Shown here in pieces: positions 1 through 3,211 of a stretch of 64,000 nucleotides of DNA. The stretch spans positions 1 through 64,000 of the forward strand of contig NZ_JACSCH020000003.1 of NCBI RefSeq assembly GCF_014451325.2, read 5' to 3'. The notes below the pieces were generated by a model. That model did no database searches. It was not told the origin of the DNA and saw only the letters and a program-made list of their open reading frames with translations. The position numbers and the translations under genes are program-made. Origin of the DNA: Streptomyces sp. CB02980 (lineage in GTDB: Bacteria; Actinomycetota; Actinomycetes; Streptomycetales; Streptomycetaceae). Every line of letters begins with the position of its first letter. Within the stretch, counting starts at the first letter, position 1.

Positions 1-363
1 ACGCTTCCTTTGTACTCACCCTCTCGGGCTTTCCTCCGGGCTTCCCTTCGGTCTTGCGTTTCCGACTCTATCAGATCCTTTCGGCGTCTGATTCCCAGTC
101 AGCGGGATTTGTCTTTCCGGCTGTTGGGCCGTTCCGACGAGTGAGACTTTAGCGGATTCCCTGCCTCCGACGCTAATCGGGGGCTGCGCTCGGGTTTCGA
201 ACGCGGATTCCTCAATTCGCAAAAACGCACGGAAAGCAGAACGGCACGGCAAAGCACCATCAGCTTCTGTGGATCTTGCGGATTGGCTGTCCGGGGCCGA
301 CCGGGGTCGGTGCTCACGTCGGACAACTCGGAGAACCTTACGGATCCGTCAATCCCGTGTCAA
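1..363 (-). promoter_or_regulatory. rRNA operon upstream/leader region (16S lies beyond the left edge)
   Basis: Read on the minus strand, bases 80 to 1 contain the characteristic stretch GATAGAGTCGGAAACGCAAG and then GTGAGTACAAAGGAAGCG. I recognise this as the leader found just before 16S rRNA in Streptomyces rrn operons. The region has no convincing ORF and is less GC-rich than its surroundings. Several TANNNT hexamers (TAAAGT at 151-146, TAGAGT at 70-65) could be extra -10 boxes, since Streptomyces rrn operons usually carry multiple promoters. The mature 16S gene is not in the window, so the operon is inferred from the leader alone. Confidence 0.72.
335..363 (-). promoter_or_regulatory. Strong vegetative promoter of the rRNA operon
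   Basis: On the minus strand TTGACA (363-358) is followed after exactly 17 bp by TAAGGT (340-335). This is a consensus -35 and a good actinobacterial -10, reading leftwards into the rRNA leader. It is the best sigma-HrdB-type promoter match noticed in the window and is probably the most upstream rrn promoter. Confidence 0.7.
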
Positions 364-391
364 CCCGGGTCCTCGGGCGTAGCCTCTGCGT
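358..391 (+). promoter_or_regulatory. Putative trpS leader promoter
   Basis: TAGCCT (380-385) is a TANNNT -10 box placed 6 nt before the leader-peptide ATG at 392. Transcription would therefore begin at or next to that ATG, making the leader mRNA leaderless. The -35 position (358-363, TGTCAA) is a poor match and is simply the complement of the rrn -35, so the two divergent promoters would share this hexamer region. Confidence 0.45.
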
Positions 392-433
392 ATGACTACG
401 CGTGCGCACACCACCCAGTGGTGGGCCGCCTGA
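392..433 (+). CDS. trpS leader peptide with tandem Trp codons
   Basis: A 13-residue ORF, MTTRAHTTQWWAA, starts at ATG 392 and stops at TGA 431-433. Two adjacent TGG codons (419-424) lie inside the first arm of a long hairpin. This is the design of an attenuation leader peptide: scarcity of charged tRNA-Trp stalls the ribosome on the Trp codons and changes RNA folding downstream. No Shine-Dalgarno sequence is visible, consistent with a leaderless message. S. coelicolor trpRS1, which sits next to proC and ilvD relatives, is known from the literature (from memory) to be controlled by ribosome-mediated attenuation, so this is likely its equivalent. Confidence 0.8.
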   Translation: MTTRAHTTQWWAA

Positions 434-484
434 CGGCGGCCCACCACTCGCGCATGCAGCAAGCGGCCGCCGACTCGGCGGCCG
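417..484 (+). promoter_or_regulatory. Tryptophan-responsive transcription attenuator
   Basis: Three alternative pairings can be read directly. Arm 1 (417-430) pairs perfectly with arm 2 (435-448) over 14 bp around a TGAC loop that is the leader stop. Arm 3 (464-472) pairs perfectly with arm 4 (476-484) over 9 bp, followed by TTCGTGT, as the terminator. Arm 2 GGCGGCC (435-441) can instead pair with arm 3 GGCCGCC (465-471) as the antiterminator. A ribosome stalled on the Trp codons covers arm 1, frees arm 2 for arm 3 and prevents the terminator. The U-tract is weak, as is usual in Streptomyces. Confidence 0.75.
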
Positions 485-551
485 TTCGTGTATCCCCCTC
501 CGGGAACCGGCCGTCGGGTCGGCGCTCAGGAGAAGAGGGAGAACGAACGCG

Positions 552-1550
552 ATGACGAGGATCTTCAGCGGGGTCAAGCCGACCGGGCACCTGACGCTGG
601 GCAACTACCTCGGGGCCGTACGACGGTGGGTCGAGGTCGATCAGCACCGGGCGGAGGCGCTGTTCAGCGTCGTCGATCTGCACGCGCTGACCGTGGAGCA
701 CGATCCGGCGCGGGTGCGGCGGCTCAGTCGGCAGGCGGCCACGCTGTTGCTGGCGGCGGGGCTCGATCCGAAACGGTGCACCTTGTTCGTACAGAGTCAT
801 GTGGACGAGCACGCGCGGCTGTCGTATCTGCTCGAGTGCACCGCCACGGACGGCGAGCTGCGGCGGATGATCCAGTACAAGGAGAAGAGCGTCCGGGCGC
901 GGGCCGCCGGCCAGAGCGTGCGGCTGTCGCTGCTGACGTATCCGGTGCTGATGGCGGCGGACATCCTGGCCTACGGGGCCGACGAGGTGCCGGTGGGTGA
1001 GGACCAGATGCAGCACGTGGAGCTCACCCGGGATCTGGCGGTGCGGTTCAACCAGCGGTACGGCCACACGTTCACGGTGCCGCGGGCGACGCGGCCCGAG
1101 GTGGCGGCGCGGGTCATGGACCTTCAGGACCCCACGTCGAAGATGGGGAAGTCGCACGCGAACGGGGCCGGGATCGTCTATCTCCTCGACGACGCGGAGA
1201 CCGTGCGGCGGAAGATCATGCGGGCCGTGACCGACAGCGGGCGGGATGTGGAGTACGACCGGGAGGGCAGGCCCGGCGTGGCGAATCTCCTCGATCTGAT
1301 GGCCGCCGCGACGGGTGGGAACCCCGAGGCGCTGGCCGGTGTATATGAAACGTACGGATCGTTGAAGAACGACACGGCGGACGCGGTCGTCGAGCTGCTG
1401 AGGCCCCTGCGGGAGCGGCATGCCGAGCTCGCGGCGGACCCCGGATTTGTGGATCAGGTGCTACGGGACGGGGCCCTGCGGGCCCGGGAGACGGCGCGGC
1501 CCCTGGTGGACCGGTCCTATCGGGCGATCGGGCTGTTGCCCGCCGGGTGA
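552..1550 (+). CDS. trpS: Tryptophanyl-tRNA synthetase (auxiliary, attenuator-controlled)
   Basis: This class I aminoacyl-tRNA synthetase of 332 residues charges tRNA-Trp in the cytoplasm. The N-terminus MTRIFSGVKPTGHLTLGN carries the HIGH-like element, and SKMGKS (about residue 195) is the KMSKS loop that binds ATP. The length is typical for the family. ATG 552 was chosen over upstream in-frame codons because it precedes the family N-terminus and has a purine-rich GGAGAAGAGGGAG ribosome site. Its mRNA leader carries a Trp-Trp peptide and attenuator, so expression should rise when charged tRNA-Trp is scarce. In S. coelicolor the gene at this locus is the indolmycin-resistant second TrpRS; whether this enzyme is resistant cannot be read here. 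The 3' end overlaps the convergent GlxA-type gene by 34 bp. Confidence 0.95.
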   Translation: MTRIFSGVKPTGHLTLGNYLGAVRRWVEVDQHRAEALFSVVDLHALTVEHDPARVRRLSRQAATLLLAAGLDPKRCTLFVQSHVDEHARLSYLLECTATDGELRRMIQYKEKSVRARAAGQSVRLSLLTYPVLMAADILAYGADEVPVGEDQMQHVELTRDLAVRFNQRYGHTFTVPRATRPEVAARVMDLQDPTSKMGKSHANGAGIVYLLDDAETVRRKIMRAVTDSGRDVEYDREGRPGVANLLDLMAAATGGNPEALAGVYETYGSLKNDTADAVVELLRPLRERHAELAADPGFVDQVLRDGALRARETARPLVDRSYRAIGLLPAG

Positions 1551-2569
1551 CGGAACGCGTTGCGGTAGTCGCGTGGGCTGGTGGCGAGGTGCGAGGCGAA
1601 GTGCTGGCGCATCGTGACCTCGCTGCCGAAGCCCGCGCGGCGGGCCACCTCGGGGAGGGGGTGGTCGGTGAGTTCGAGGAGTTTCTGGGCGGCGGCGACG
1701 CGCTGGGTGATGAGCCAGTGCAGGGGGGTGGTTCCGGTGGTGGCCTGGAAGTGGCGGGCGAAGGAGCGGGGCGACATGCCGGCGCGGGCGGCCAGGGTCG
1801 CGACGGTGTGGGGCTCGTCGAGGTGGGCGAGGGCGTGGGCGCGGATGTCGGCGAGGGCGTCGGCGTCGCGGTCGGCGCGGGGGGTGGGGTGCTCGATGAA
1901 CTGGGCCTGGGTGCCGGTGCGGAAGGGGGCGGTGACCATGGCGCGGGCGATGGCGGCGGCTGCTTCGGCTCCGTGGGCGGTGCGGACGAGGTGGAGGCAG
2001 AGGTCGATACCGGCGGCGGTGCCGGCGGAGGTCCAGACGCCGGTGTCCTCGACGAAGAGGGCGTCGGGTTCGACCTGGATCGCGGGGTGGCGGTCGGCGA
2101 GCGTCGTGGCCAGGTGCCAGTGGGTGACGGCGCGGCGGCCGTCGAGGAGTCCGGCGCGGGCGAGGACGAACGCGCCGGCGCAGAGCGAGGCGACCGGGGT
2201 GCCCGCGGTGTGGGCGCGGCGGAGGGCGTCGAGCACCGGGGTCGGGACGTCGGTGTCGGGGTCCTCGATGCCGGGGACGAGGACCAGGTCGGTGGGGGTG
2301 AGGTCGTCGAGCCAGGTGAGCGGGCGGTCGGGGGTGAGGGAGAGACCGCCGCGCAGTGGGATGGGGGTGTCCGGGTCGGTGGCTGCCCTGCGGAGTTCGA
2401 AGGGAGGGACGCCGCGGAGGGTGCGGTCGCTGCCCCAGACCTCGGTGATGACGGAGACGTCGAAGGCGCGGATGCCCGGGAAGGAGAGGAGCGCGATGCG
2501 CTGGGGGCGGGGCGCGGGGGTCTGCGGCATGGGCGGCATGAGTGGCAGTAAATCATCGATCGCTGTCAT
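1517..2569 (-). CDS. GlxA-type transcriptional regulator (DJ-1/PfpI plus AraC HTH)
   Basis: The 350-residue protein has an N-terminal glutamine-amidotransferase-like fold (about residues 20-190) with the nucleophile-elbow motif SLCAGAF, and a C-terminal AraC-type double helix-turn-helix (about 225-335, containing ARAGMSPRSFARHFQ and ARRAGFGSEVTMRQHF). This is the GlxA/FtrA architecture, in which the amidotransferase domain acts as a ligand or redox sensor rather than an enzyme. The start ATG follows AGAGGGGTGA, a strong ribosome site. It is transcribed divergently from the isochorismatase-fold hydrolase at 2615 across about 45 bp, so that hydrolase is the likely regulatory target. Its end overlaps trpS tail to tail. 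Confidence 0.9.
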   Translation of the reverse strand: MTAIDDLLPLMPPMPQTPAPRPQRIALLSFPGIRAFDVSVITEVWGSDRTLRGVPPFELRRAATDPDTPIPLRGGLSLTPDRPLTWLDDLTPTDLVLVPGIEDPDTDVPTPVLDALRRAHTAGTPVASLCAGAFVLARAGLLDGRRAVTHWHLATTLADRHPAIQVEPDALFVEDTGVWTSAGTAAGIDLCLHLVRTAHGAEAAAAIARAMVTAPFRTGTQAQFIEHPTPRADRDADALADIRAHALAHLDEPHTVATLAARAGMSPRSFARHFQATTGTTPLHWLITQRVAAAQKLLELTDHPLPEVARRAGFGSEVTMRQHFASHLATSPRDYRNAFRHPAGNSPIAR

Positions 2570-2614
2570 TCACCCCTCTGGGAGAGGGCCTCGGCCGGCG
2601 GCAGGATCGTGGGC

Positions 2615-3211
2615 ATGGAGATCACGGAGAACACAGCGCTGGTTGTCATCGACGTACAGAAGGGCTTCGAGGAGGAGTTCTGGGGGAAGCGGAACAACCC
2701 GGCCGCCGAGGAGAACATCGCGGCTCTGATCGACCTGTGGCAGGAGACGGGGCGGCCGGTCGTGTTCGTGCGGCACGACTCGGTGGAGGGCTCGCGCTCG
2801 CCGCTGCGGGTCGGGTACGAGGGGAACGCGTTCAAGGACTTCGTCGAGGAGCGGCGCGGGAAGGGCAGTGGTCCTGAGCTGCTGGTGACGAAGAGCGTGA
2901 ACTCCGCCTTCTACGGGGAGCCGTCGCTGGACGCGTGGCTGTCCGGGCGGGAGATCGGGCAGATCGTGATCGTCGGGATCCAGACGAACATGTGCAACGA
3001 GACCACGGCGCGGATGGGCGGGAACCTCGGGTACGAGGTGGTGTTCCCGCTGGACGCGATGCACACGTTCGATCTGGAGGGGCCGTTCGGCTGGTCCCGG
3101 AGCGCGGACGAGCTGTCGCAGGCGACGGCCGTGTCCCTGCACGGGGGACGGTTCGCGAAGGTCGTGACGACGGAGGAGGTGGTGAAGGGGGCGTCCGTCG
3201 GGGTCCGGTGA
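2615..3211 (+). CDS. Isochorismatase-family cysteine hydrolase
   Basis: The 198-residue protein has the isochorismatase/nicotinamidase fold. The probable catalytic triad is visible: Asp in VVIDVQKGF, Lys in LVTKSVNSAF and Cys in QTNMCNETTARMG. Members hydrolyse amides or vinyl ethers (nicotinamide, N-carbamoyl compounds, isochorismate); the substrate here cannot be told from sequence. ATG 2615 is preferred to the in-frame GTG 2609 because GCAGGA lies 8 nt upstream of the ATG but only 2 nt from the GTG. It is divergent from a GlxA-type regulator and followed by convergent proC, so it is monocistronic. Confidence 0.88.
   Translation: MEITENTALVVIDVQKGFEEEFWGKRNNPAAEENIAALIDLWQETGRPVVFVRHDSVEGSRSPLRVGYEGNAFKDFVEERRGKGSGPELLVTKSVNSAFYGEPSLDAWLSGREIGQIVIVGIQTNMCNETTARMGGNLGYEVVFPLDAMHTFDLEGPFGWSRSADELSQATAVSLHGGRFAKVVTTEEVVKGASVGVR

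Follow-up and report, generated by a model that had tools for sequence, protein, structure and literature searches.

What controls the auxiliary tryptophanyl-tRNA synthetase gene of Streptomyces sp. CB02980, and does the short open reading frame in front of it sense tryptophan? The window, i.e., the whole stretch of DNA that was analysed (64,000 nt, from the first position of contig NZ_JACSCH020000003.1), carries this trpS close to its beginning (Table 1). An initial annotation had read the region in front of the gene as a complete Trp-Trp attenuator, and this reading is supported by mutually exclusive pairings (1:2, 2:3 and 3:4), by a trpS located 118 nt downstream of the leader and by conservation in relatives. 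The element is a real, conserved Trp attenuator of an auxiliary trpS, known in kind and in orthologs, to which we add here a covarying outer stem, a 14-bp hairpin that turns out not to be general, a second leader class and a kinetic requirement.

The auxiliary trpS and its leader

The genome (9.07 Mb) contains two trpS genes, the second copy being located on another contig. The TrpS of the window has Lys at the residue aligned to position 9 of a structurally solved TrpRS, where that enzyme has Gln, and Gln was also read (by eye) at this position in the other copy. Position 9 of TrpRS is presumably linked to resistance. An auxiliary TrpRS is described as indolmycin-resistant in PMC9437257 and PMC6804068. 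At one of the related loci (L005) a complete 16S rRNA gene (131-1656) lies on the minus strand and begins about 685 nt upstream of the trpS leader, so that trpS and a ribosomal RNA operon are divergent there; no 16S rRNA gene was found in the 2.5 kb upstream at another locus (L035). Many contigs, that of the window included, begin just upstream of trpS, perhaps because of the rRNA operon.

Table 1. Features of the trpS leader region in the window (coordinates of the window).
Feature	Position	Strand	Basis
Conserved TGTCAA motif, -35-like	358..363	+	In 77/80 loci
-10-like element TAGCCT	380..385	+	Placement conserved across loci
Leader ORF MTTRAHTTQWWAA*	392..433	+	Sequence: 13 codons, ATG ... 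CAG TGG TGG GCC GCC TGA
Outer stem, 5' strand, within leader codons 3-6	400..407	+	Fold, covariation, partner swap
Arm 1 (conserved core 424-430)	417..430	+	Fold, 58-sequence alignment
Tandem regulatory Trp codons TGG TGG	419..424	+	Sequence; compared across 80 leaders
Arm 2 (conserved core 435-441; 434-441 is the antiterminator strand)	435..448	+	Fold, alignment
Outer stem, 3' strand, between arms 2 and 3	450..457	+	Fold, covariation, partner swap
Arm 3 (core 464-472)	462..472	+	Fold, alignment
Antiterminator partner of arm 2 (2:3 = 434-441:465-472)	465..472	+	Conservation, masked folding
Arm 4 (core 476-484), hairpin 3:4, terminator-like	476..486	+	Fold, alignment, cross-family covariation
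C/U-rich tract, possible pairing partner of the trpS gene-start region	493..502	+	Weak partner-specific signal
Likely trpS ribosome-binding site GAGGGAG	535..541	+	Sequence
trpS, tryptophan--tRNA ligase, auxiliary copy, 332 aa	552..1550	+	TIGR00233 307.2 bits, cut-off 176.75

The anatomy described by the initial annotation is correct down to the single base. The 13-codon ORF with its tandem TGG codons is there, and the two arms of hairpin 1:2 pair over 14 bp with zero mismatches around a loop TGAC (431-434) that consists of the leader stop plus one C. The alternative pairing of arm 2 with arm 3, given before as 435-441:465-471, extends to 8 bp. Arms 3 and 4 make up the terminator-like hairpin of 9 bp (464-472:476-484) with a 3-nt loop, which gains two pairs (462-463:485-486) in the fold, that is 11 bp. 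The region 392-488 (97 nt) folds at -66.8 kcal/mol vs -40.9 (sd 3.6) in dinucleotide shuffles, none of which (0/200) was as stable (z -7.2). This fold also contains an outer stem (400-407:450-457) that is absent from the initial annotation. A candidate extension of the terminator stem (454-458:489-493) was rejected, as its cells are paired in 77.9% of cases vs 77.3% in shuffles. The tail after 3:4 is TTCGTGTA, with 4 T of 8 (at least 5 T of 8 in 28/80 related leaders); in the window a clean U-run directly 3' of the terminator hairpin, as expected from an enterobacterial-type trp attenuator, is missing, and a terminator scan found no terminator.

The stretch upstream of the leader has its own conserved elements. 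In all 77 loci counted, a TANNNT motif has its first base 12 or 13 nt upstream of the leader start, and it does so at 13 nt also in the three loci that have no upstream TGTCAA and were left out of the 77. It is found at such a distance in 15/15 leaders of a second class and 9/14 distant leaders (see below), with a background in the window of 9/9,115 positions. This placement of the -10-like element fits a transcript that would begin at or adjoining the leader ATG, i.e., a leaderless one, even if a sigma-70 consensus scan of 200-700 did not find a promoter. A start downstream of the hairpins, one of the two refuting observations named by the initial annotation, is countered by the same placement and by the S. 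lividans ortholog, published as leaderless in the description of PMC8079986. The distances between TGTCAA and the -10-like element fall into two groups (15-18 and 27-28 nt), and therefore the role of TGTCAA as a -35 box is not certain; the spacing fits a factor-binding site at least as well. The two spacings differ by about one helical turn.

Conservation, covariation and distribution of the leader

A protein-guided scan yielded 462 related loci, of which the best 80 were kept (79 named Streptomyces and one Microtetraspora). Counting the window together with these best 80, trpS is preceded in 80/81 by a leader that has 13-14 codons and terminates in W[W/R] followed by two residues. The 81st sequence (L076), whose leader is 15 codons long and contains a single Trp, was excluded from later counts (n=80). 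The distance from leader stop to trpS, 118 nt in the window, ranges from 108 to 155 nt in the 80 leaders. Their length is 13 codons in 78 and 14 in two, so that the sole length change is one extra codon, a coding signature. Of the two paired codons, the first specifies Trp in every case, at codon 10 (codon 11 in the two 14-codon leaders), and the second is Trp in 74 (WW) and Arg in six (WR). The trpS frame is itself open from a GTG at 402 to 1550, overlapping the leader ORF in another frame, which is probably a high-GC coincidence.

The arms were compared in an alignment of 58 sequences sharing less than 90% identity, and in it the inner arms (GGCCGCC, GGCGGCC, CGGCCGCCG and CGGCGGCCG) are nearly invariant, as is the core of 1:2, whose seven inner pairs are kept in 56-58 of the 58 sequences. 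Beyond this core, a 3-bp piece (418-420:445-447) pairs in 44-48 of the 58, and the other outer pairs are kept much less often (417:448 in 25/58, 421:444 in 4/58, 422:443 in 19/58 and 423:442 in 14/58). The 14-bp hairpin of the initial annotation is then perfect in the window but not general, the inner 7 bp and the 3-bp piece being what is kept.

Covariation of arms 2, 3 and 4 had been put forward as a way to check the attenuator, and it can be answered in part. Pairing 2:3 is present in 98.5% of cells with zero double changes in the 58 sequences; since these arms are nearly invariant, covariation is silent and cannot test 2:3. Hairpin 3:4, on the other hand, covaries across families, with 13 double-change cells among 18 leaders from several families vs 4.2 in shuffles (0/500 as high). 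Within the genus the strongest covariation is that of the outer stem, paired in 93.1% of cells with 41 double-change cells vs 19.4 in shuffles, none of which was as high (0/500). Two of the five covariation measures for this stem, the pairs with a double change (5 vs 4.6) and the pair types (12 vs 11.7), do not exceed the shuffles. An alignment-free swap of partners showed that each strand fits its own partner far better, with z -8.0, -5.3 and -3.4 at redundancy cut-offs of 90, 75 and 65%, while unrelated pairings used as controls stayed flat (|z| at most 0.83).

A model of these leaders (R1, class 1) was searched in 150 genomes of the same genus and matched 99 at E <= 0.001, 95 of them at E <= 2e-12 (strong matches). 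All 95 genomes with a strong match have at least two trpS-family matches, the second counted irrespective of the family cut-off, and a strong leader was found in 0/18 genomes with a single trpS-family match. Fifty of the 51 same-genus leader loci fetched carry a trpS match. The remaining one (L090) has a strong leader and, within the stretch fetched, a TrpS match limited to the first 29 residues; its trpS is therefore possibly broken.

More than one trpS-family match without a strong R1 leader was found in 37 genomes (in several of them the additional matches score under the cut-off), from which 20 upstream stretches were fetched. A second leader class, e.g., MTSVPCRNWWRSS*, appeared in 15 of the 20 (L196 and L198-L211; 14 WW and one RW); the other five comprise one stretch without a leader, one inside a partial gene and three with N over much of their length. 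In these class-2 leaders the core arms differ in sequence and the plan 1:2/2:3/3:4 is kept. They precede auxiliary trpS genes of another type, scoring about 224-254 bits, which we take to encode the S. griseus-type enzyme. The class-2 model (R2) matches 24/150 same-genus genomes, and 118/150 have either a strong class-1 match or a class-2 one, one genome having both.

Outside the genus R1 gave weak matches. Twenty weak-match loci were fetched, 15 of them from other genera, where the leader stands before trpS in 12 and before trpD, coding for anthranilate phosphoribosyltransferase, in three that belong to other families of the taxonomic class (L143, L145 and L152, e.g., MIKRVDGWWPAS*). Among the five of the same genus, three are remnants without an adjoining trpS (L158, 563-645, minus strand; L160, 326-392, minus strand; L159, 309-412): two of them retain the GTGTCAAC motif and 3:4, and one has an intact WW leader with a decayed terminator. 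The other two (L161 and L162) have no Trp leader. A broader covariance model (R3), built from 18 such leaders, matches 132/394 genomes of the taxonomic class, in 12 of its family labels. Twenty further R3 loci carry tandem Trp codons in 19 cases and a single Trp in one, and are followed by trpS (6), by a gene similar to anthranilate synthase I (13, of which 12 score below the curated cut-offs) or by a chosen ORF without a match (1).

How ribosome position may set the switch

A way to follow the switch is to fold the 80 leaders with a ribosome footprint masked (12 nt upstream and 16 nt downstream of the first P-site base, assumed values), counting a pairing as formed at a mean probability >0.5. 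In a transcript ending after arm 3, 2:3 formed in 80/80 leaders with the ribosome waiting at Trp10, in 0/80 with the ribosome at the stop and in 8/80 without a ribosome, when 1:2 formed in 72/80. This is the order expected of an attenuator. The choice between 2:3 and 3:4 by ribosome position that is general to attenuators is predicted for a transcript of this length. A ribosome placed at the stop leaves the outer strand paired with the spacer between arms 2 and 3 in 80/80. When arm 4 is included, 3:4 prevails in all states, and with the ribosome at Trp10 it does so in 78/80 leaders; 3:4 beats 2:3 at equilibrium even with a stalled ribosome, and so the control must be kinetic, exerted before arm 4 is transcribed.

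Taken as a whole, the element is very probably a ribosome-mediated transcription attenuator of the auxiliary trpS, orthologous to the S. lividans trpL2-trpS leader. To the observed anatomy and predicted pairings the following model adds, by inference, actual termination, a Trp response, a kinetic ordering and a role of the outer stem. RNA polymerase would begin at the leader ATG or beside it, with a ribosome presumably loading on the leaderless 5' end. With ample charged tRNA-Trp it would reach the stop in the 1:2 loop and cover arm 2, the outer stem could close around it, and arm 3 would be left to arm 4, leading to termination. When charged tRNA-Trp is scarce, through starvation or under drugs like indolmycin, a ribosome waiting at Trp10/Trp11 would cover arm 1 together with part of the outer strand. 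Arm 2 would then find arm 3 while arm 4 has yet to be transcribed, 3:4 would be blocked and trpS transcribed. If no ribosome loads, 1:2 and the outer stem would form, and then 3:4.

It is conceivable, and we put it forward tentatively and with some doubt, that the outer stem, which pairs codons 3-6 with the spacer between arms 2 and 3, acts as a clamp reporting ribosome position in actinobacterial Trp attenuators, within a plan that both Streptomyces leader classes, each with its own kind of auxiliary trpS, have in common. The stem would be blocked while a ribosome waits on the Trp codons, and its closure around a ribosome at the stop might enclose arm 2 and commit the RNA to termination without a U-run.

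The missing U-run after 3:4 could also point to a leader that works chiefly at the level of translation. In that case the C/U-rich tract would hide the trpS ribosome-binding site, and 2:3 would free arm 4 to pair further downstream and open the site. The 18 nt after the terminator do prefer their own gene-start region over those of other species (z -2.7, 8/2,000 permutations as strong), but this signal fades when redundancy is removed, to z -1.9 (57/2,000) and then -1.4 (169/2,000). The ribosome-binding site is moreover unpaired to almost the same extent in either state of the switch (mean of 80 leaders 0.26 without a ribosome or with one at the stop vs 0.27 with 2:3 enforced), opening by >0.2 in nine leaders and closing by >0.2 in nine. 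RNAalifold on 53 sequences gave no stem between tract and gene start, finding downstream only 3:4 and a small hairpin with one doubly changed pair. We regard control at translation as improbable. A relay in which arm 4 and a fifth arm release the ribosome-binding site, suggested by individual folds, was rejected because the average accessibility is unchanged by the switch.

The leader ORF might instead boost trpS translation by ribosome reinitiation and have nothing to do with Trp sensing. PMC4833913 proposes reinitiation at leader genes of actinobacteria, with a peak at 10-11 bp between leader and gene; all the stop-to-trpS distances given above, 118 nt in the window included, are far beyond this, and a Trp is kept at codon 10 or 11 in all 80 leaders. 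We consider this role very improbable. T-boxes are known to control aminoacyl-tRNA synthetase genes in Firmicutes, as stated in PMC1262725, and one of them or another known riboswitch could in principle sit here, yet no Rfam family, T-box included, reaches its gathering score in the window, and we consider the idea extremely improbable. The sole weak match in 1-3000, to RcsR1 (26.5 bits vs a cut-off of 60, E 0.015), sits on the two GC hairpins and was taken as chance.

Ribosome-mediated attenuation thus stays the preferred reading, and the window element offers a clean example of how Streptomyces may turn on its spare tryptophanyl-tRNA synthetase if charging fails, e.g., under a TrpRS inhibitor. 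The comparative set (two leader classes, trpD/trpE-like relatives, leaderless-type promoters, a covarying outer stem and no U-run) makes termination without a U-run in high-GC actinobacteria a testable question, and likewise whether the outer stem sets the decision.

Relation to known attenuators

The initial annotation had placed the novelty in the exact architecture: the principle of attenuation is indeed known, but much of the exact architecture is in print as well. Vecchione and Sello reportedly described in 2010, going by the title of their work, an auxiliary antibiotic-resistant trpS under ribosome-mediated transcriptional attenuation. We take this system to be S. coelicolor trpRS1, and the window leader to be orthologous to the trpRS1 leader. 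Earlier, Seliverstov et al. (2005) predicted computationally attenuators before trp operons and a classical one before S. avermitilis trpS2 (PMC1262725). For the trp operons, that article gives complementary triples gGCC-rGCy-GGCC, to which our nearly invariant arms are comparable, and all the trp-operon terminators there are followed by poly-U tracts, in contrast to the terminator of the window. Among the works cited in PMC4833913 are one of 2010 on attenuation of bacterial amino-acid and aminoacyl-tRNA operons and one of 2015 on Trp attenuation in Actinobacteria.

Attenuators before trpE are also described in Streptomyces, in S. venezuelae (PMC1262725) and as trpL1 of S. lividans (PMC8079986), in the sections of these articles devoted to them. 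Leaders of this type are found by the same model R3 and differ from the trpS leader in being longer, in having three Trp codons and in the gene that follows. The genome studied here has one too, MYASQIQNWWWTAHPAAH, with three Trp codons before an anthranilate-synthase-like gene on contig C12 (L247, found with R3).

The closest system is trpL2 of S. lividans TK24, which in its description in PMC8079986 precedes trpS, is leaderless and has two hairpins and no U-rich stretch. The outer stem found here goes unmentioned in that description; we do not claim it as unpublished, the literature compared being open-licence only. As described there, trpL2 (MMTRTCTQLWRAA, 13 residues) has one Trp codon, whereas the leader of the window has two, and both share the length of 13 codons, the two hairpins, the lack of a U-run and the position before trpS. 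With 13 codons, a Trp at codon 10 and an auxiliary trpS downstream, the leader of the window belongs to the Streptomyces trpS (trpL2 / trpRS1) leader type.
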